Of a stretch of 34,893 bases of DNA, positions 3,013 through 24,220 are shown in pieces (position 1 is the first letter of the stretch; each line of letters begins with the position of its first letter). Source of the DNA: Phycisphaerales bacterium. GTDB lineage: Bacteria; Planctomycetota; Phycisphaerae; UBA1845; PWPN01. The position numbers and the translations under genes are program-made. The DNA lies in contig JAAYCU010000242.1 in NCBI GenBank assembly GCA_012729595.1, positions 1 to 34,893 on the forward strand. Reading direction: 5' to 3'. The notes below the pieces were generated by a model that was not told the origin of the DNA, did not search any database, and saw nothing but the letters and a program-made list of their open reading frames with translations.

Positions 3013-3855
3013 GTGCAAGAAACCGCGCTGGAAACCAAACTGGAGAAGATGAAAAGTGGCCTGCGGGCCCTGGAGAGCGTGGCCGTCGCGTTTTCGGCCG
3101 GCGTGGACTCGACCTTTCTGCTCAAGGTGGCCGTCGATACGCTCGGCCCGGACAAGGTGATCGCGGTTACCGCCGACAGCGACAGCCTGGCCCGGGCGGA
3201 ATTCGAGGAGGCGGTCAAGCTGGCCGAGGGCATGGGGGCGCGGCATGCGGTAATCAAGACCGGCGAGTTCGACGATCCGAATTATCTGGCCAACCCGGCC
3301 AACCGCTGCTACTACTGCAAGAACGAGTTGTTCGGCAAACTCGGCGAGTTTATCGCCGAGCACGGGTTGAAGGCCGTCGTGGCCGGGGTGAACGCAGACG
3401 ATTACGCCGACTGGCGGCCCGGTATCCAGGCTGGACGCGAACACCATGTGTATACGCCCTGCGCCGATGCGGGGCTGACCAAGCAGGATATCCGAGCGTT
3501 AAGCAGGCGGATGGGCCTGCCCACGTACGACAAGCCGGCCATGCCTTGTCTGGCCAGTCGAATACCATACGGCGAGGCCATCACCCCGGAGAAGCTCAAG
3601 ATGATCGAACGCGGCGAGGCCCTGCTGCGGGAGATGGGCTTTCCCGAGTGCCGGGTACGTCATCATCAAAACCTGGCCCGTATCGAGGTGCCGGCCGGAC
3701 AGATCGAAATCCTCTGCCGCCCCGAGACCCGCCAACAAGTCGAATCCGCCTTTCGCGATATCGGCTACGCCTACGTGGCCGTGGACCTGCGCGGGTTCCG
3801 TAGCGGGAGCATGAACGAAGTGATCGCCTTCGGGCAGAAAACGCCCGCCGAATAA
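3013..3855 (+). CDS. larE: ATP-dependent sacrificial sulfur transferase LarE
   Basis: PP-loop SAGVDSTFLLKVA, ANRCYYCKNELF, DDYADWRPG, MPCLASRIPYGEAIT, VRHHQNLARIEV; GTG start. Confidence 0.93.
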   Translation: MQETALETKLEKMKSGLRALESVAVAFSAGVDSTFLLKVAVDTLGPDKVIAVTADSDSLARAEFEEAVKLAEGMGARHAVIKTGEFDDPNYLANPANRCYYCKNELFGKLGEFIAEHGLKAVVAGVNADDYADWRPGIQAGREHHVYTPCADAGLTKQDIRALSRRMGLPTYDKPAMPCLASRIPYGEAITPEKLKMIERGEALLREMGFPECRVRHHQNLARIEVPAGQIEILCRPETRQQVESAFRDIGYAYVAVDLRGFRSGSMNEVIAFGQKTPAE

Positions 3856-12212: not shown

Positions 12213-13226
12213 TCAGGCTCGCGGATGGGCCTGATCGTAGACCTGCTTCATGCGGTCGGTGGTCAGGTGCGTGTAAATCTGCGTCGTCGAGAGGGACTGG
12301 TGTCCGAGCAACTCCTGGACGCTGCGCAGATCGGCCCCGCGGTTGAGCATATGGGTCGCGAAGCTGTGCCGCAAAGTATGCGGTGAAACATCCGGCGGCA
12401 AACCGGCGATGGCCAGATACTTGTCCAGCTTACGGCGTACGCTACGGGTGCTGAGCCGCTGGCCATGTTTATTGACGAAGACGGCCTGCTGATCGAAGGC
12501 GGCGGCCCGGGCGTCGGCCCGGCGCATTTCCATGTATCGTTTGATCCAGGCCAGGGCGGTCGGAGAAATCGGTGTTACCCGTTCTTTCTTACCCTTACCG
12601 CGGATATGCAGGGCCTCGCCGACAAAATCCACGTCCTCGATATTCAAATCCACCAGTTCACTGACCCGTACGCCGGTGGAGTACATAGTTTCGAGCATGG
12701 CCCGGTCGCGCGCGCCCAGAAGCGTGTTCACTTCCGGGGTTTCGAGAAGCTTGCGGACCTCTTCCTCACCGAGGAACTTCGGCAGGCGCTTGTCCTGCTT
12801 AGGCGTGCGAATGGGGGCCAGCGGATTACTGGGCACGTAGCCGCGTTTCAGACAGAACTTGAAGAAACTGCGGAGCGTGGCCAGCTTGCGGGCCGTAGTG
12901 CTCTTGGAGTATTCCTGATCGCGCAGGAAGGCCAGAAAGCGGCGCACGTCCTCGGTCTCGATGCCCAGCATCAGTTCCCGGGAGATCACGGGCATCGTCG
13001 AGGTACCCGTTGAGGGCGGCGCAACCGCGACTGCCGTACCTCCGCCGTCGGACATACCGTACCCACCCGACGAACCAGGCATCTCGACCGACCCGCCACC
13101 ATGGTCCGCGATGAACTCGCAGAACTGATTCAGGTCGGCCGCGTAACACTTGGCCGTATGCGGCGAGAAATGCCGCTCGAATCGGAGGTAATTCAGAAAT
13201 TCGTCAATCAATTTATTTTCGTTCAT
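12213..13226 (-). CDS. Tyrosine recombinase XerC/XerD family
   Basis: Likely start MNENKLIDEFLNYLRFERHFSPHT at 13226. Catalytic motifs STGVRVSELVDLNIEDVD, HTLRHSFATHMLNRGADLRSVQELLGHQSLSTTQIYTHLT. Confidence 0.95.
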   Translation of the reverse strand: MNENKLIDEFLNYLRFERHFSPHTAKCYAADLNQFCEFIADHGGGSVEMPGSSGGYGMSDGGGTAVAVAPPSTGTSTMPVISRELMLGIETEDVRRFLAFLRDQEYSKSTTARKLATLRSFFKFCLKRGYVPSNPLAPIRTPKQDKRLPKFLGEEEVRKLLETPEVNTLLGARDRAMLETMYSTGVRVSELVDLNIEDVDFVGEALHIRGKGKKERVTPISPTALAWIKRYMEMRRADARAAAFDQQAVFVNKHGQRLSTRSVRRKLDKYLAIAGLPPDVSPHTLRHSFATHMLNRGADLRSVQELLGHQSLSTTQIYTHLTTDRMKQVYDQAHPRA

Positions 13227-13317
13227 AATACTACCAGCAACAGCGGCGAAGGTTTTCGTTTCCAACCTGGCTCGAGACCGAAAGACCTCAGGTGCTTATC
13301 CCCGATCCTTCAATCCC

Positions 13318-15891: not shown

Positions 15892-15993
15892 GTTCAGAAC
15901 CTGGCCGGGCAACAAGGGGGGAACAGGGCAGCCCAGGGCATCCGCCCAAGCCCGGAACAACTCGGCTTCGGCGTCGGTGATGCGTTTACCTGC
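15892..15993 (-). repeat. Dispersed M48-C-terminus-derived repeat, copy 1
   Basis: Minus-strand reading SAGKRITDAEAELFRAWADALGCPVPPLLPGQVLN*; similar at DNA and protein level to copies at 17228, 21322 and 22307. Confidence 0.8.
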
Positions 15994-16009
15994 ACTGTAT
16001 ATTATAAAC

Positions 16010-16030
16010 AAAAAGAGCTGCGTCCCCTTT
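16010..16030 (+). repeat. Left inverted-repeat end of cassette
   Basis: AAAAAGAGCTGCGTCCCCTTT; inverted match to 17176-17195. Confidence 0.8.
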
Positions 16031-16066
16031 CTTATCTTATCCCCCCCTTATCCCCTCTGAGGTGCT

Positions 16067-16408
16067 TTACTGAAACATCCGCTGGATCATTGAGCGGACT
16101 GTCTGTAATTGTTCTGAAGGCATAACGCCGAGCGTGCTTTTAACGACCTGCTGACTAATGGTCATCAGTATGGACCAGCGAATAGTCTTAGATTGAGCGC
16201 GTAATCCTGTCTGCTTAAACCAATCCGCCCCTGCATCGAGAGGAAAAATGTTCATATCGTTCGGAAATTCCTGAGCACTGATTGGAACGGCAACGAAATC
16301 TTCCCTACTATTGAACACATCGCTGGACACAATCAAAGCAGGGCGCACTTTGCATCCCGATCCATCCGTGAAGGGGTATTCCAACAATATGATCTGCCCA
16401 CATTTCAT
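16067..16408 (-). CDS. PemK/MazF-like type II toxin
   Basis: MKCGQIILLEYPFTDGSGCKVRPALIVSSDVFNSREDFVAVPIS...LRAQSKTIRWSILMTISQQVVKSTLGVM; ATGA overlap with upstream gene. Confidence 0.8.
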   Translation of the reverse strand: MKCGQIILLEYPFTDGSGCKVRPALIVSSDVFNSREDFVAVPISAQEFPNDMNIFPLDAGADWFKQTGLRAQSKTIRWSILMTISQQVVKSTLGVMPSEQLQTVRSMIQRMFQ

Positions 16409-16620
16409 AAAGGCCCGCCGTCACCCGGCGAATAAATATCCTCACATGGATCATTCCAAAAATCCAAACATCCGGCAGATTCTATCAGACGCATTTGCTG
16501 CAATTGCGTAGGGTCGGACACTTGGCCATCCACTACCTGAATGGGGTTCGGGCAAACGACGAAAGAGGGCTCATCTTCATTCATATCTAACGGCGGCAAG
16601 TCCAAGATTGTAGTTGTCAT
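16405..16620 (-). CDS. Putative acidic antitoxin-like protein (71 aa)
   Basis: MTTTILDLPPLDMNEDEPSFVVCPNPIQVVDGQVSDPTQLQQMRLIESAGCLDFWNDPCEDIYSPGDGGPL; adjacent to toxin with ATGA overlaps on both sides; LDFWNDPCEDIY resembles a toxin-binding tail. Confidence 0.6.
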   Translation of the reverse strand: MTTTILDLPPLDMNEDEPSFVVCPNPIQVVDGQVSDPTQLQQMRLIESAGCLDFWNDPCEDIYSPGDGGPL

Positions 16621-17015
16621 GGTTTTTCTCCCGGTTGAACCAAGACCACCTCAAATGGCCGTTGGAGCAAGAGTTCCTCACTCCACAACTCTATATAATG
16701 TCTCCCCGGTTCCTTGAAGCGTACATTTTTTATAAAAAAGTGCATATCGCATATTGTCCCAGGATTTACTTGTGGTGGAAAATCTAATTTCGCCTCGGCG
16801 ACTTGTTCATCTGTTTCAGAATGAACGATTTTGACCTTGATGGATGTTCCAGCGTGCACATCTGTAACCGCCGCATATACACAAAGATTGGGATGCACAC
16901 ATGGAAACTTATGGGACCTTACAGTGTTAAATATACCTACCAAGGCTGTTTTTTTACTTGGATCGACATAAATCGATTCACATACGACCAAAGCTATGGG
17001 ACGTGGGTTGATCAT
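16617..17015 (-). CDS. DUF6941-like family protein
   Basis: MINPRPIALVVCESIYVDPSKKTALVGIFNTVRSHKFPCVHPNLCVYAAVTD...GRHYIELWSEELLLQRPFEVVLV; pattern recalled for DUF6941. Confidence 0.65.
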   Translation of the reverse strand: MINPRPIALVVCESIYVDPSKKTALVGIFNTVRSHKFPCVHPNLCVYAAVTDVHAGTSIKVKIVHSETDEQVAEAKLDFPPQVNPGTICDMHFFIKNVRFKEPGRHYIELWSEELLLQRPFEVVLVQPGEKP

Positions 17016-17052
17016 GGTTTTACACAGCTAATAACGGTTTTTCCCCTCAATA

Positions 17053-17081
17053 ATTTTAGCTAGCCAGGGAAAGAATAACAA
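17053..17081 (-). promoter_or_regulatory. Putative sigma70-type promoter of the DUF6941/antitoxin/toxin operon
   Basis: Minus strand TTGTTA - 17 bp - TAAAAT, 38 bp upstream of the ATG at 17015. Confidence 0.5.
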
Positions 17082-17125
17082 CCAAGGCCATGAAACGCAA
17101 GGCTGTTTGGCAATATCTTCTTATC

Positions 17126-17149
17126 AAATCGGGGGACTTCCCGATTTTT
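17126..17149 (+). terminator. Terminator-like hairpin at cassette edge
   Basis: AAATCGGG-ggactt-CCCGATTT followed by TT (five T in all). Confidence 0.4.
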
Positions 17150-17176
17150 GGGGAGATAGGGGAGATAGGGAAGATA
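17150..17176 (+). repeat. Three tandem 9-bp units abutting right inverted repeat
   Basis: GGGGAGATA GGGGAGATA GGGAAGATA. Confidence 0.8.
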
Positions 17177-17195
17177 AAGGGGACGCAGCTCTTTT
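17176..17195 (-). repeat. Right inverted-repeat end of cassette
   Basis: Plus strand AAAGGGGACGCAGCTCTTTT = reverse complement of AAAAGAGCTGCGTCCCCTTT. Confidence 0.8.
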
Positions 17196-17227
17196 ATTTG
17201 ACGATTCATTGTTCATGCGTTACCCCT

Positions 17228-17309
17228 GTTCCAGGCCTCGGCATCGGCGATGCGTTTATCGGCATTGATGCAGGCAGCGCCGGCCTTGAGGCCGAAAAGA
17301 GCTGCCCTT
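17228..17309 (-). repeat. Dispersed M48-C-terminus-derived repeat, copy 2 (truncated)
   Basis: Minus-strand reading AALFGLKAGAACINADKRIADAEAWN; near-identical DNA to copy 3. Confidence 0.85.
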
Positions 17310-17327
17310 ATGCCACCGAAGCGGCGT

Positions 17328-20300
17328 TCACGGGCACGCCGGGCAATCGCTGTTGCAGTTGGTCGGGCTGTTCCCGTGAACCGTCATGCCGCTGACCACC
17401 GTACCGCCGGCGCAGGCGATCCCGCCACCGCCGGTTGACGCGGAATCCGTCAGCGTGTTGTCGGTCACCACGCAGTCCAAAATCGAGCAGCCCATGCCGG
17501 TCCAGATCCCACCGCCGCCGGTGGTCGCGGTGTTGTCGTTGACCGTACACTGGCTGGCCGTACTCTTGAACAGGCTGAGCCCGCCGCCCCATTGCGAGGC
17601 AACGTTGCCGGTGATCGTGGAGGCCATGATGTCGCCTTCGGCGATGTGGGCACCGCCGCCCTGCGGCGCCGAGTTGTTCTCGATTTGGCACAAGCTGACA
17701 AGAGGGTACCACCGCTCCGCCTGGCCGATCGCGTAGATTCCGCCGCCGCGATAGGACGCCTCGTTGTCCATGAACGATGAACTGAGCACGTAGACATCCT
17801 TGTCGCTGCCGAGCCCGCCACCGTTCCTGGCCGTATTGTAAGCCGCGTACACGTCGGCGATCACCGACGTGACGGCGATATCCGACAGGCTGCCCTGAAC
17901 GAAAATGCCGCCACCGTCGCCCTCGATCGCCTCGTTGCTTGTCAACTGGCAATTCGTGACGTTGGACTGTTCGAGGTAGATGCCGCCGCCCTGGCTGTAG
18001 AAGGCGTTTCCGGCGGTCCCGGCCCGGTTGCGCAGAAGGAAGCCCGAATGGATCCGGCTGTAGCTCGCGCGGATTCCGCCGCCGCGCTGGCCTGCGGTGT
18101 TGTCGATCAATTCGACCTGCGAGACCTCCGTCCCGTCGCACCAGATGCCCCCGCCGTCCTTACCGGCCGAGTTCTCGGTAAACACGCAGCCAACGATGAA
18201 GAGCGGCTTGCCCTCGGAAACGATGTTCGCATGAATGCCCCCGCCATCCTCGCCGGCCTGATTGGCGTCCAGGACACAGTTCTGGATCGACACCCCGTTG
18301 GCCGCCTTGATGCCGCCGCCGTCGCGTTCGGCGATGTTGCGGGCGAAGACGCAGCCGGTGATCGTGGAATACTCGCGGGCCGATACGCCGGCTCCGTTCT
18401 GGGCCGTATTGTCGGTAAAGACACAGTCGGTCAGGATGGCATTGGCAGCGAACGCCCCGCCCCCGCCGGTGAACGCACTGTTTTGCGCAAAGGTGCAATC
18501 GATCAACCGGCATTGGTTCGCCGCGATGCCGCCGCCGGAGGAACCCGCGGTATTGCCGACGAACGTGCAGTTCGTCAGGATCGGCACGTGGTCCTCATCC
18601 TTCGGTACGTTCGCCAGGTTGACCGCTCCGCCGGACGAGGTCGCGTGGTTGGACTCGAAGCGGCAATTCGTGAAGGACACGAGCGTTCCACCGTCCGAGA
18701 CATGGACGGCCCCGCCGTCGCGGGCCTGACAGGCGCGGAAGGTGCAGTTGTTAAAGGCGACGTTGGCGTTGCCGCTCAGCCGCAGGGCCCCGCCAAAGTT
18801 GCCCGAGCCGCGGTAGATCTGCAGATTCCGGAAGGTGACATGCGTGCCGTGCAGCCAACCCAGCCGGGCGGCGTCGGCCAGATCGATGATCGTCGTGTCC
18901 GGGCCGGCCCCTTCGATCACCACGTGGTCGCGCGGGATGATGATTTCGTGGAATCCGTCTCCGGAGTGCGTACCGGCCTCGACATGGATGATGTCGTTGT
19001 AGGTCGCCGCGTTCAACGCGGCCTGGAGCGTGGGGTACTGGCTGGGTACATAGAGCGTCCGCGGCGGGTTGGAGGCGAAGATCGCCCGGACGCTTCTGTT
19101 GGTGGTCATCTCCAACACGCCGGTCAGCTCGTCACCGGTGAGAGAACCCTCCCAATGATGGAACTCGAAACCGGCGGCCGGCTGGGCCGCGACCAGGACG
19201 TTGATCCCCCACGGGTACGGGCCGGTGCCGGGGAACAACTGAATCTCGCCGGCGCCGGGCGGGAAAACCTCGGTGGTAACGGTGTAGGTGGGCAGGCCCG
19301 TTCCCGTCCCCGCCCCGGTCCAACTGTCGCCCATGCCTTCGGGCACGATGCCCGCGATGAACAGCTTGGATGCGTCGACGGGCTGGCCGGACAGGGTGGC
19401 CGCGTGCAGCGTCTGACTGCTGCCGCTCATCAGGTTGCGAACGGTCCAACCGGCCACCTCGTAGCCGGTATTCGGCTGAGCGGTCATATTGAGCGACTGG
19501 TTGAACAGATAGAGATCCCAAATCAGATCTTTCGGCGAAATGGCCGCCGTGCCCAGTCCGGCCGGATCCACATCGGCCAGCATCCGCGCGAGCAAGACCT
19601 GACGGGCCTTGAACAGGTTGTGCGAGTAGGTGTAGCTCGGTAAGCCGTCGATAATCGCGAACTTCAGGTTGAAATCACACTTGCTACCCCGGCCCAGCTC
19701 GGCGCCGAGCACGCCGTCCCTGTAGGTGCCTGCCAGTTCGAGGTACTCCTTCCAGGACAGCGACGGGCCGACGACGCCAAAGAAGGTCATCCCGAACTTC
19801 GGCTTGACGTAGATGCGGGCGGTAATCGGCGTGATGCCCCACTCCGGCGTGTGCGGCGTGACCGTAAGCGTCCTCTCGGCAATGGGGATCCAGCCCTCGC
19901 CCTTTGTGTATTCGGCACCGAGCGTGGCACCGGCGTTGAAGTCCATACCGGCAGTGATGGTGCCCATGTCCCCGAAGACCACCTCCGCGCCGATCGCGAC
20001 CTCGAGGAAGGCCTGGTATATGATGGGCGGCCCGCCGACGATGTAAATGAAGCCGAAGGGATTAGGCCACTTGGCCTTGGCGATCGTCGTTTCCTTGCTG
20101 ATAAGTTCCGAGACCTTGTACGCCTCGACGGAAACCCCCAGCCCGAGATGGAAGTCGGTGCCGGCCGTGAGGCGCAGGTGCTTGAGGCTGCTATCCTCGA
20201 TCTCGGCCGTGAAGTCGAAGTCCGGACTGAAGTCGATCGTCAACTGATCGAGAGTAACCTTACCCCATCCGTCCAACGAGATCGAGTGGTCGGTGAAGGT

Positions 20301-21044
20301 CAGCGAGGCCATGCCCCGGTTGCCGCGCGTCAGGCGGACTTGCTTCATGTTATCCGGCAACGCCATGCCTGCCGTCTCGAGAACCACATCGTCGGGATCG
20401 AATGGAACGCTGAACTCAAGGGTGCCGTTTTGGATCAGGTCGGTCAGGGCCGCCTGCTCGGTCGCGACGGTCGTCTGCTCGCCGTTGCTTATCGCCGGGG
20501 AGATCACGCGGAGCAACCGGCCTTCGCCGCGCGTGGACAGCAGTAACGTACCGGGAGCGATCGAAGCCGGAACCTCGCTGCCGGTCAGCGTGGCTTGTCC
20601 GTCAGCATCGACGATGATCTCAACGGTGTCCGGCAGAACGCGAAGGTTCTTGTTGATCGTAATGTCTCCCGTCCCCTCGTCGATGGCGACGAAGACGGCC
20701 TGGATCTGGACGTTCGCGTTGATCGTGAGCGGCAGTGGGTTGGTGGCGCCGGCGGCGTCGCCTTCCCATCGCTCGAACCGGAAGCCGGCGGCGGGCGTGG
20801 CGGCAAGCGTGACCGGCGCGCCGGCGGCATAGGTGTCCTGGGCGGGATCGAGCGCAACGATACCCCCGCCCTCGGGCATAACCGTCACCGTGATGGTATA
20901 CCCGTCCTCCGGCTCCAGGCCATCCGGAGGCACACAGCTCCCGACCAAGACCGCCAGCGCGCCGGCCAACACGAAGGCTGTTGCCTCGAAGGCAGAAGAC
21001 CGACGGACCCGTGTCACGAGTGGATTACATGCTTGTCGGCTCAT
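17328..21044 (-). CDS. Large lipoprotein with InlB-type repeats and a C-terminal right-handed beta-helix (Pmp-like GGG repeats)
   Basis: Likely start MSRQACNPLVTRVRR at 21044; lipobox LAVLVGSC. Two VTL..P..GF.F..WEG modules; YPTLQAALNAATYNDIIHVEAGTH; many GGGI/CxFxxN repeats. Confidence 0.88.
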   Translation of the reverse strand: MSRQACNPLVTRVRRSSAFEATAFVLAGALAVLVGSCVPPDGLEPEDGYTITVTVMPEGGGIVALDPAQDTYAAGAPVTLAATPAAGFRFERWEGDAAGATNPLPLTINANVQIQAVFVAIDEGTGDITINKNLRVLPDTVEIIVDADGQATLTGSEVPASIAPGTLLLSTRGEGRLLRVISPAISNGEQTTVATEQAALTDLIQNGTLEFSVPFDPDDVVLETAGMALPDNMKQVRLTRGNRGMASLTFTDHSISLDGWGKVTLDQLTIDFSPDFDFTAEIEDSSLKHLRLTAGTDFHLGLGVSVEAYKVSELISKETTIAKAKWPNPFGFIYIVGGPPIIYQAFLEVAIGAEVVFGDMGTITAGMDFNAGATLGAEYTKGEGWIPIAERTLTVTPHTPEWGITPITARIYVKPKFGMTFFGVVGPSLSWKEYLELAGTYRDGVLGAELGRGSKCDFNLKFAIIDGLPSYTYSHNLFKARQVLLARMLADVDPAGLGTAAISPKDLIWDLYLFNQSLNMTAQPNTGYEVAGWTVRNLMSGSSQTLHAATLSGQPVDASKLFIAGIVPEGMGDSWTGAGTGTGLPTYTVTTEVFPPGAGEIQLFPGTGPYPWGINVLVAAQPAAGFEFHHWEGSLTGDELTGVLEMTTNRSVRAIFASNPPRTLYVPSQYPTLQAALNAATYNDIIHVEAGTHSGDGFHEIIIPRDHVVIEGAGPDTTIIDLADAARLGWLHGTHVTFRNLQIYRGSGNFGGALRLSGNANVAFNNCTFRACQARDGGAVHVSDGGTLVSFTNCRFESNHATSSGGAVNLANVPKDEDHVPILTNCTFVGNTAGSSGGGIAANQCRLIDCTFAQNSAFTGGGGAFAANAILTDCVFTDNTAQNGAGVSAREYSTITGCVFARNIAERDGGGIKAANGVSIQNCVLDANQAGEDGGGIHANIVSEGKPLFIVGCVFTENSAGKDGGGIWCDGTEVSQVELIDNTAGQRGGGIRASYSRIHSGFLLRNRAGTAGNAFYSQGGGIYLEQSNVTNCQLTSNEAIEGDGGGIFVQGSLSDIAVTSVIADVYAAYNTARNGGGLGSDKDVYVLSSSFMDNEASYRGGGIYAIGQAERWYPLVSLCQIENNSAPQGGGAHIAEGDIMASTITGNVASQWGGGLSLFKSTASQCTVNDNTATTGGGGIWTGMGCSILDCVVTDNTLTDSASTGGGGIACAGGTVVSGMTVHGNSPTNCNSDCPACP

Positions 21045-21321
21045 TGTTTTCGCCTTTCTGATATGAGGGCGAGTGGAATTGTCGTACCGGTTCAAGATCG
21101 TTCGGCGACCCAGCCTCACCGCCTATTATCATACCAGCGCGGCGCGGTCAAATACAGCACTGGGACCGTCTTTCCCAAGAGCCATCCCCCACACCCGGCA
21201 GGTCGCCGGCGATTCCGGCCGCTAGGCCCTCCCCGTCGATGCCGCCGTGTGCTGCTGCTCTCGATCCGTATCTTAAATAATGATTCCCGTCACGCCGTTA
21301 CGGCATGAGCCGACCCGGATG

Positions 21322-21455
21322 AGTAAGGGGAGGGACGGGCAACCAAGGGCGTCGGCCGCGGTATGGAACAACTCGGCCTCGGCGTTGGTGATACGTTTAT
21401 CGGCATTGATACAGGCCGCGCCGGCCTTGAGGCCGAAAAGAGCTACACCCCCTTA
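21322..21455 (-). repeat. Dispersed M48-C-terminus-derived repeat, copy 3
   Basis: Minus-strand reading GLKAGAACINADKRITNAEAELFHTAADALGCPSLPLLI. Confidence 0.87.
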
Positions 21456-21817
21456 TCCGCCCGGTACAACCGGATGGTCCCTGGGGTAACGACAACGATC
21501 GCACCGATCGCCGATTCTATGTCCATGCCTGCCAGGAGAGACTCGGTGAGATGAATGTAACCGGCTCGACTCTCGCGCGGCAACCGCAGTAGAACGATGC
21601 CCGCATGAGCGCCCGGTGAAAAAAGCCGTGCGTTTGAAAACCCTTTGTCCGCGGTGAACAGACACCGCCGCTCCTGTTGCACTACTTTCCAAAGTTTCTC
21701 GTCGGGAGTTCCGGTCAATCCCTCTTGGATGACCGTTTGCGCATCGTGGCCCGCTCTGCGCAAAATATCAGCAACCTCGACTGGCAAGTCCTCATCAACC
21801 TTTACCGCAATGGACAT
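21443..21817 (-). CDS. DUF5615 family PIN-like toxin
   Basis: MSIAVKVDEDLPVEVADILRRAGHDAQTVIQEGLTGTPDEKLWKVVQQERRCLFTADKGFSNARLFSPGAHAGIVLLRLP; 9 bp after the DUF433 gene. Confidence 0.85.
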   Translation of the reverse strand: MSIAVKVDEDLPVEVADILRRAGHDAQTVIQEGLTGTPDEKLWKVVQQERRCLFTADKGFSNARLFSPGAHAGIVLLRLPRESRAGYIHLTESLLAGMDIESAIGAIVVVTPGTIRLYRADKGV

Positions 21818-21826
21818 GATGTGTAT

Positions 21827-22081
21827 CTACTTCGAGATCGGAACAAGGTCGAAGCGGTTGACCGCTTCCGCGGCGTAGAGCAAGGCCGCCTGGATATCTT
21901 CCCGGGCCAATTGTGGATAACTTCTCATAATCTGTTCGAAGGTGTCACCGTCGGCCACGCTCCCGACAATGACGCTCACGGGTACACGCGTGCCGCCGAC
22001 ACATGGATCGCCATGGTGAACGGCGGGATCACTGCGAATGCGCTCACGCCAATCGGTAGCTGTATCCATAAAGCACCTCAC
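21827..22081 (-). CDS. DUF433 family antitoxin
   Basis: RIRSDPAVHHGDPCVGGTRVPVSVIVGSVADGDTFEQIMRSYPQLAREDIQAALLYAAE; start may be MDTATDWRER at 22069. Confidence 0.88.
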   Translation of the reverse strand: MRCFMDTATDWRERIRSDPAVHHGDPCVGGTRVPVSVIVGSVADGDTFEQIMRSYPQLAREDIQAALLYAAEAVNRFDLVPISK

Positions 22082-22211
22082 AGTAGAACCTCGAATTTGC
22101 CAAGTTCATCATAACAGTATTTCCTCTTTTGGCCAAGACCGGGGGGAAATACGAGGGCGCGGCTCGTTTATTAGACTGGCCCCGCGAGGATGGCGAGTTG
22201 ACGATCAACTC

Positions 22212-22229
22212 AAAGAGCTGCGTCCCTTT
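22212..22229 (+). repeat. Solo copy of the cassette-end motif
   Basis: AAAGAGCTGCGTCCCTTT; matches 16010-16030 with one C fewer. Confidence 0.75.
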
Positions 22230-22275
22230 CGAGTGCGTCCGGAAACTTATTGTATCGGTCTTTCATGGCCGAAGT

Positions 22276-22306: not shown

Positions 22307-24220
22307 TCAGGATGCATTCTTGATCAGGGGAGGGACAGGGCAGCCTAAGGCGTCGGCCGCAGCGCGGAACAGCTCGGCCTCGGTGATACTTATATCGGCA
22401 CCGATGCAGGCGGCGCCGGCCTTGAGCACCTTTTCCTTCAGCGGCGGGGACAGGCGAGCAAGTTCATCCAAGGCCGCGTCGAGGGTCTTCAAACCGCATC
22501 GGTCCAAAGGACACAGGGTCATATCCTTCAATTGGAGGGTTTGGGCACCGGCCTCGAAGGCAACCCGCACTTTGTCCATCTCTTTTTGTCCCGCATACGC
22601 CAGGGTGGACAGAAACACCTCAAGATGGCCGCGGAGTCGCGGTAAGCCATAGTACATGGATCGGGGAGGGGCGGCCCCGCGCGTAAAATGGGCCTCGAGA
22701 CTATGCAGGACAAGCCTTTGGAGCATCCACTCGAACAGCTCGATCTTCCGGTCGGCCTCGACCAGGGCGACAAAATTACGCTTGAACGTCTGGTACTGGC
22801 TCGGCGAGAGCTGTTTCAAGGCCGGCAAGGTCAGATCGATCAAGGGCAGTCGTTCGCGGGTTTTCAGCCGCTCGGCCGACGGCAGCAGCTTCAAGGTGAT
22901 CTGAAACACGTCCGGATCGGCGTACTGGGCCAGCCATTCGATCTGATTCTTGCGGACATCGCCCTCACGTTGAATCAGGAGAGCATAAATGACCGCCCGC
23001 GCTCCGAAAGGATCATGGGCGGCGCTCACCAGCGGTTCCGGAAGGTCATGGAGTACCTGGCCAGCATACTGAATATGTTCCTCGGTCGGCTCCGCGATCT
23101 GGGCGACCACCGGTTTAGCTTGCCCCACGAAGGCCGCCGGGGCCATTCCCCGAGCCGTGGTTTCCCGGGCGGAACTGGCCGCCGGCCGCCCCTTGGCAAA
23201 ACCACCATCCCAGTCCGGCTCGATCCGACGGATGCGCTCGGTCAGCGGCGGGTGGGTGGCAAAAACACCTCCGAACCAGGTGGAAAACCCCTGACTGAAA
23301 AACATGTGGCTGGCCTGCGCGGCGTTGGGATTTTCCAGCCGCGACCCAAGGGAGAATCCGCCGATCCGCTTCAAGGCCCCGGCTATCCCGGAAGGGTTGC
23401 GGGTGAACTGCACGGCCGAGGCGTCGGCGAGATATTCACGTTGGCGGCTGACGGCGGCCTTGATCAATTTGCCGAAAAAGGTGCCCGTATAACCGATGAT
23501 TATGAGGGCAATCCCCAAGGCCAGGAGAATGAACACGCCCCCATCGCCCTTGCCGCGGCTGGAACGCCGCGTACGATGAGTCGAACCGCCTATCGAACGA
23601 AGCAAGATATACCCGATCATCCCGATGATCAGGATCCCGTGCAAAAAGCCCATAAGACGGATATTCAAACGCATGTCGCCGTTGAACACGTGACTGAACT
23701 CGTGAGCGATGACGCCCTGCAATTCGTCGCGGGAGAGTTGCTCGGCACATCCGCGGGTGACGGCCACCACCGCGTCGGCGGGCGAATAGCCGGCGGCGAA
23801 GGCATTGATGCCTGCTTCCTCCAGGATGTAGACCGGGGGGACCGGCGTTCCCGAGGCGATGGCCATTTCCTCGACCACGTTGAACAGCCGGCGTTCGGTG
23901 TGGTCCGTGGTATTGGGCGGGACGAGTCGGCCACCCAACGCCTCCGCAACCGCCTTGCCGCCACCGGCTCGCAACTCAACAATTTTATACAGACTGCCCA
24001 GCCCCACGACGGCCAAGGTTCCCAAGCCGACCGCGAGCAAGAGGGTAGGATGAAAAAGATCCACACTCGGCTGGCCCATATCCTGTTCGATAAAACCAAC
24101 CAACAGGAAGGCCACCACCATATAAACCATGAACATGATGGCCAGAACGGCCAGCGTGAATAACACGATGAGTCGGCCGGTCTTTTTTCGAGCTATCTCC
24201 TGGCTCTCGAAGAAGTTCAT
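22307..24220 (-). CDS. M48 family metallopeptidase (HtpX-like) with long C-terminal extension
   Basis: N-terminal TM helices; GINAFAAGYSPADAVVAVTRGCAEQLSRDELQGVIAHEFSHVFNGDMRLN (HExxH); ends KAGAACIGADISITEAELFRAAADALGCPVPPLIKNAS. Confidence 0.93.
   Translation of the reverse strand: MNFFESQEIARKKTGRLIVLFTLAVLAIMFMVYMVVAFLLVGFIEQDMGQPSVDLFHPTLLLAVGLGTLAVVGLGSLYKIVELRAGGGKAVAEALGGRLVPPNTTDHTERRLFNVVEEMAIASGTPVPPVYILEEAGINAFAAGYSPADAVVAVTRGCAEQLSRDELQGVIAHEFSHVFNGDMRLNIRLMGFLHGILIIGMIGYILLRSIGGSTHRTRRSSRGKGDGGVFILLALGIALIIIGYTGTFFGKLIKAAVSRQREYLADASAVQFTRNPSGIAGALKRIGGFSLGSRLENPNAAQASHMFFSQGFSTWFGGVFATHPPLTERIRRIEPDWDGGFAKGRPAASSARETTARGMAPAAFVGQAKPVVAQIAEPTEEHIQYAGQVLHDLPEPLVSAAHDPFGARAVIYALLIQREGDVRKNQIEWLAQYADPDVFQITLKLLPSAERLKTRERLPLIDLTLPALKQLSPSQYQTFKRNFVALVEADRKIELFEWMLQRLVLHSLEAHFTRGAAPPRSMYYGLPRLRGHLEVFLSTLAYAGQKEMDKVRVAFEAGAQTLQLKDMTLCPLDRCGLKTLDAALDELARLSPPLKEKVLKAGAACIGADISITEAELFRAAADALGCPVPPLIKNAS

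Follow-up and report, generated by a model that had tools for sequence, protein, structure and literature searches.

The window analysed here is a complete contig, C227, of 34,893 nucleotides, in a draft genome of 4.1 Mb and 406 contigs. It contains a toxin-antitoxin (TA) operon between two perfectly inverted 20-mers. A first-pass annotation had taken this 1.19-kb PemK block for a MITE-like or otherwise mobilised cassette. It is most probably an ordinary TA operon that lies between two separate relic units of a REP/TIR-associated Y1 transposase family. The cassette reading is not supported: the ends have the wrong polarity, the block is present in a single copy, and the TA operon is found elsewhere without such ends. 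An operon enclosed by a perfect inverted pair can mislead in this way, and the polarity of the repeats, as known from autonomous copies in relatives, provides a quick test.

Table 1. Coordinates of the repeats, operon genes and M48-derived stretches in the window
Feature	Coordinates	Strand	Remarks
c1, degenerate copy of M48 3' end (KRITDAEAELFRAWADALGCPVPPL)	15907..15997	(-)	On the T-run side of the TIR at 16011-16030
TIR of TIRYT/RAYT-type unit	16011..16030	(-)	Reads AAAGGGGACGCAGCTCTTTT on the minus strand; T-run away from PemK; left edge of unit U(c1)
PemK/MazF-like toxin, 113 aa	16067..16408	(-)	PF02452, E 6e-12, 46.1 bits (cut-off 23.1)
71-aa likely antitoxin, C-terminus EDIYSPGDGGPL	16405..16620	(-)	Similar short ORFs before PemK elsewhere
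DUF6941 protein, 132 aa, leading gene of the three	16617..17015	(-)	PF22091, E 3e-17
TIR of second unit	17176..17195	(+)	T-run away from PemK
c2, partial M48 3' end of about 70 bp (17234-17303), with degenerate far TIR (17295-17310)	17234..17310	(-)	
c3 (21325-21444) joined to degenerate TIR (21436-21455)	21325..21455	(-)	
Solo degenerate TIR, 3 mismatches	22211..22230	(-)	Between M48 and the DUF433/DUF5615 pair
M48 peptidase gene, source of tail copies c1-c3	22307..24220	(-)	

The sequence AAAAGAGCTGCGTCCCCTTT is read at 16011-16030 on the plus strand and has a perfect inverted match at 17176-17195 on the minus strand, and a third copy with 3 mismatches is found at 22211-22230 (+). The chance expectation for matches to the 20-mer is 0 (100 shuffles). 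The perfect inverted pair of about 20 bp that had been pointed out is confirmed, at the place claimed and with a start, 16010, that was one base early; the single further end noted near 22212 is the third copy. The degenerate motifs reported near 17296 and 21434 are also real, at 17295-17310 (AAAAGAGCTGC followed by CCCTTAT) and at 21436-21455, but what was described there as copies 2 and 3 turned out to be incomplete duplicates of the M48 3' end. In the own assembly, allowing up to 3 mismatches, the 20-mer is found at the three window sites, with one related 3-mismatch variant on contig C98, and nowhere else; this genome search, suggested together with the cassette reading, gave no second PemK block, and no empty site was found either. 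The own-genome occurrences of the 11-mer AAAAGAGCTGC are confined to three places of the window locus. The flanks at the edges of the PemK block are TAAACA and ATTTGA, and the target-site duplication that had been envisaged there is not visible. Folded as DNA, the 20-mer reaches -0.5 kcal/mol (z 0.5), meaning that it is not a significant hairpin, nor is it self-complementary. A terminator-like hairpin, AAATCGGG...CCCGATTT, is present at approximately 17126-17149, upstream of the DUF6941 gene (DNA fold -7.3 kcal/mol, z -3.3).

Among relatives, GGGGACGCAGCTCTTTT occurs with up to 1 mismatch in G009 (15 places), G002 (5), G022 (4), G016 (2), and a few others, and among 390 genomes drawn from the phylum the own genome alone carries it exactly. 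A scan with one genome per species gave the exact 20-mer in 88 stretches, from at least 28 assemblies by accession prefix (80 of the 88 stretches listed); among the matches listed, 25 assemblies are labelled planctomycetes and 3 are deltaproteobacterial or Syntrophobacteria MAGs. The presence of the exact 20-mer in L132, L133, and L170, from MAGs labelled Deltaproteobacteria or Syntrophobacteria, may reflect horizontal spread or mis-binned contigs. Copy numbers are low in the genomes examined, none of which gave more than a few dozen exact sites. That the inverted pair is a product of chance or of assembly is hardly credible: misjoins of repeats are possible in a draft MAG, but zero matches are expected by chance, the same 20-mer recurs in all these assemblies, and the four M48-tail stretches of the window all differ in sequence, which means that they are not collapsed repeats.

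The proposed RAYT-type (IS200-like) origin of the 20-mer is upheld by relatives, where it flanks REP-associated Y1 transposase genes. The search for a transposase with matching ends gave seven units of approximately 0.77 kb (L157, L164, L168, L171, L177, L189, and L077) with inverted 20-mers at both ends of the transposase gene. AAAGGGGACGCAGCTCTTTT lies close to the gene's 5' end (in the measured cases 38-43 bp upstream), with its T-run pointing towards the transposase, and the inverted partner at the 3' end has 0-2 mismatches. Two of the transposase proteins match PF01797 (Y1; E 4e-15 and 2e-13), one scores 63 bits against the NCBIfam model 'REP-associated tyrosine transposase', below the cut-off of 80, and both the HUH (NHWHM) and the tyrosine (RYVERN) motifs can be recognized by eye in the sequences. 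The 20-mers are most likely the terminal inverted repeats (TIRs) of REP/TIR-associated Y1 (HUH) transposase units belonging to a Planctomycetota family, and their transposition, by analogy with the known family, would occur by single-strand cut and paste by the Y1 enzyme.

The motif was counted 138 times in 586 kb versus 0 in shuffled loci, and the polarity of the ends was surveyed using neighbouring motifs in 83 loci. Inverted pairs less than 100 bp apart are all T-inward (29/29, 0 T-outward), with spacers of 3-56 bp, and the seven longer T-inward pairs all have a transposase gene inside. T-outward neighbours are rarer and wider apart (338-2125 bp; L131, L146, L164, L167, and L189), and in L146, L164, and L189 they are visibly parts of two different units. 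The PemK pair is T-outward, which is opposite to the autonomous and paired units, and therefore each of its 20-mers most plausibly marks the edge of a different unit that reaches outward from the operon. That the pair forms the two ends of one element was not confirmed, every known unit with these ends having the opposite polarity. One relic unit would lie left of 16030 and the other right of 17176, with the PemK operon in the gap between them, and the ends would have been placed by the family transposase, acting in trans or since lost.

It is rather unlikely that the PemK block is itself mobile, mobilised in trans through its outward 20-mers or, in the manner of a composite transposon, through the outer ends of the flanking units. 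Two perfect ends do enclose a single operon, two TA-like operons adjoin such ends in one stretch, and a relative has a T-outward pair around a lone 181-aa ORF (L061/L131). Apart from the polarity, what speaks against mobility is that the genome holds one copy with no duplication in the edge flanks, that the block has no match in 72,556 plasmids, that the 20-mer was not found in viral contigs, and that the operon is known elsewhere without the ends.

This last point was seen in G197 (L105), where DUF6941, an 80-aa ORF ending in EENIYSLSDGTAL, and PemK occur in the same order; the repeat motif is absent from G197 (up to 1 mismatch) and no such ends are found at L105. In the window, as the first-pass annotation had described, the repeats enclose a single operon, composed only of PemK (PF02452), the 71-aa ORF, and DUF6941 (PF22091), and no transposase is found between them or in the rest of the window. 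The three genes overlap head to tail on the minus strand, with an overlap of 4 bp between PemK and the 71-aa ORF. A toxin domain and an adjacent small antitoxin-like gene are present, as in type II TA systems, and the likeness to PemK/MazF systems extends to the toxin following a short ORF that resembles an antitoxin and carries an EDIYS-like motif at its C-terminus; besides L105, short ORFs with an EDIY(S/T) end stand ahead of PemK-like genes in L213 and L219. The difference from these systems is the leading third gene, DUF6941, which was found in this position elsewhere only in G197. DUF6941 is present in 132 of the 390 phylum genomes, mostly without a nearby PemK in the loci examined. We interpret the whole as a TA operon of the ordinary kind in which DUF6941 is an accessory gene, the toxin role being predicted from the sequence.

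The own genome contains 5 matches to PF01797, none of the cognate type, and candidates for a cognate transposase were discarded, the best long matches to the enzyme of G002 being 30-32% identical. Three short stretches are 63-76% identical to the first 27 residues of the G002 transposase. A transposase 5' relic on contig C151 reads MPRDARITPGGWGYYVLNRAVR, with a stop soon after and with AACGGGGACGCAG/AACAGGGACGCAG-type ends upstream, and a second 5' relic is found on C165. These decayed 5' ends indicate that the lineage formerly carried such elements, of a sister type at least, while an intact cognate transposase could be missing because the assembly is a draft of many contigs. The preferred reading of two relic units has this against it, together with the fact that the own genus is represented by one genome. 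Truncated transposase 5' ends and a second TIR type, AACGGGGACGCAGCTAGTTT, are present in the own assembly (G000) on C151 (L225), C165 (L226), and C98 (L079), and this TIR type is also seen in loci of G009 and G016.

The proposed relic units are accompanied by degenerate, partial duplicates of the M48 3' end. The three copies c1-c3 are on one strand, each adjoining a TIR, are approximately 78-91% alike, and are truncated to different extents; the protein identity to the C-terminal part of M48 is 77% for c3 and 71% for c1. Unit U(c2), at 17176-17310 (about 135 bp), has TIRs at both ends in T-inward orientation, the far one with an apparent 4-bp deletion. After its TIR at 17176-17195 comes TTGAC-N17-GTTACCC, a stretch similar, by eye, to the promoter region in the L077 transposase unit. 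The junction AGCTCTTTTCGGCCTCAAGGCCGGCGC is identical in c2 and c3. Units U(c1) and U(c3) have AAGGGG from the M48 sequence in the place of a canonical second TIR, and this lack speaks against the reading of relic units. So does the fact that both PemK-side 20-mers are perfect and the far ends degenerate, which is unexpected if the pairs aged together. M48-tail copies were found in the own genome only, with none in 12 other family genomes. The tail copies keep 6 bp that are absent from the present M48 gene and apparently occur in the homologues of L011-L013 (C-termini compared by eye), indicating that the copies may be older than a small deletion in that gene.

A single tail copy split by insertion of the PemK block, with a 34-bp overlap between c2 and c1, was considered and is disfavoured. 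The two differ at 6 of the 34 overlap bases and c1 resembles c3 at least as much as it does c2; these differences, together with a TIR junction of their own in each, lead us to prefer separate copies. It is possible, although unlikely, that a TIRYT-type unit swapped its transposase gene for the M48 3' end and was then copied to three places within 6 kb, interleaving cargo operons with tail repeats. Should these units have made the tail copies, such an activity would be new among Y1 transposases, and the capture of the M48 tail by a Y1 transposon, if true, would be comparable to the capture of gene fragments by the Pack-MULEs of plants.

An integron- or island-like accretion at the M48 3' end, with the tail copies as attachment sites of a tyrosine recombinase, is very improbable. 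It would account for the order on one strand (M48 tail, DUF433/DUF5615, c3, 1263-aa protein, c2, PemK operon, c1), and a tyrosine recombinase gene is present at 12213-13265, but by eye the latter looks like a housekeeping enzyme of the XerC/D type, the divergence and varied truncation of the copies are unlike recombination cores, and the tail repeats are in no other genome of the family. The DUF433 (PF04255) and DUF5615 (PF18480) gene pair, at 21443-22081 (-) with the solo TIR (22211) on one side and unit c3 on the other, is likely a second pair of the toxin-antitoxin type, and the stop codon of its DUF5615 ORF is supplied by the degenerate TIR. The 1263-aa protein, encoded at 17328-21119 (-) between two M48-tail copies, has InlB B-repeat-like (PF18998) and Chlam_PMP (PF02415) repeats.

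Duplications next to TIRs were also observed in other loci. In L171 (4162-4606) the transposase 3' end and its TIR are tandemly duplicated, 145 bp at 96%. In L186 (3720-3894), a T-inward TIR pair (3767-3843) at a gene boundary is flanked by 45-bp direct repeats (91%), a single case that looks like a long target duplication. In L169, a 102-bp gene tail with the stop codon is present at both 2324-2425 and 3369-3470 (98%), one copy being on the T-run side of the TIR at 2466-2485 and about 1 kb from the parent-like copy. The general rule of long target duplication or gene-tail linkage prompted by these three loci was not supported, with no significant excess: of 213 TIR-side segments, 13 had a direct repeat within 2.5 kb, versus 35 of 1065 segments taken at random from those loci (Fisher P 0.07, with segments that are not independent). 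A gene fragment suspected within the 146-bp paired units of G009 is actually the antisense of the 5' end of the cognate transposase itself.

In published systems, RAYT genes lie between two inverted REPs (Nunvar et al. 2010, PMC2817692), and REP doublets are mobile units (Bertels and Rainey 2011, PMC3116915). The family described here shares with RAYTs and REPINs the two inverted repeats flanking the gene and the short-spacer inverted doublets scattered without transposase. The 29 T-inward pairs of relatives are such REPIN-type doublets, and the PemK pair is not among them. It differs in that a single 20-mer is not a stable hairpin, has no GTAG tag, and is low in copy number. TIRYTs, or TIRtrons, are Y1 transposases with TIRs instead of REPs (Di Nocera et al. 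2013, PMC3733652); their repeats, most but not all of which share GGGGWSAS, also occur as singles and dimers (PMC3733652), and most TIRYTs have been placed in subclass 2.1 (PMC6006769), to which the transposase family of the 20-mer probably also belongs. The likeness to this group lies in a Y1/HUH gene between inverted repeats that are not significantly self-complementary, in a GGGG-containing core, and in the occurrence of singles and dimers. The differences are a core, GGGGACGC, that agrees with GGGGWSAS at 7 of 8 positions, a 20-bp sequence found almost only in Planctomycetota, and, in the window, ends without a transposase. We file the repeat family as a Planctomycetota addition to the known TIRtron/REPIN kind, and the TIRtron group, itself little explored, gains a 20-bp TIR family present in at least 25 assemblies labelled planctomycetes. 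On contig C217 of the own genome, a transposase has flanking repeats with GGGGACAC, which by eye fits GGGGWSAS.
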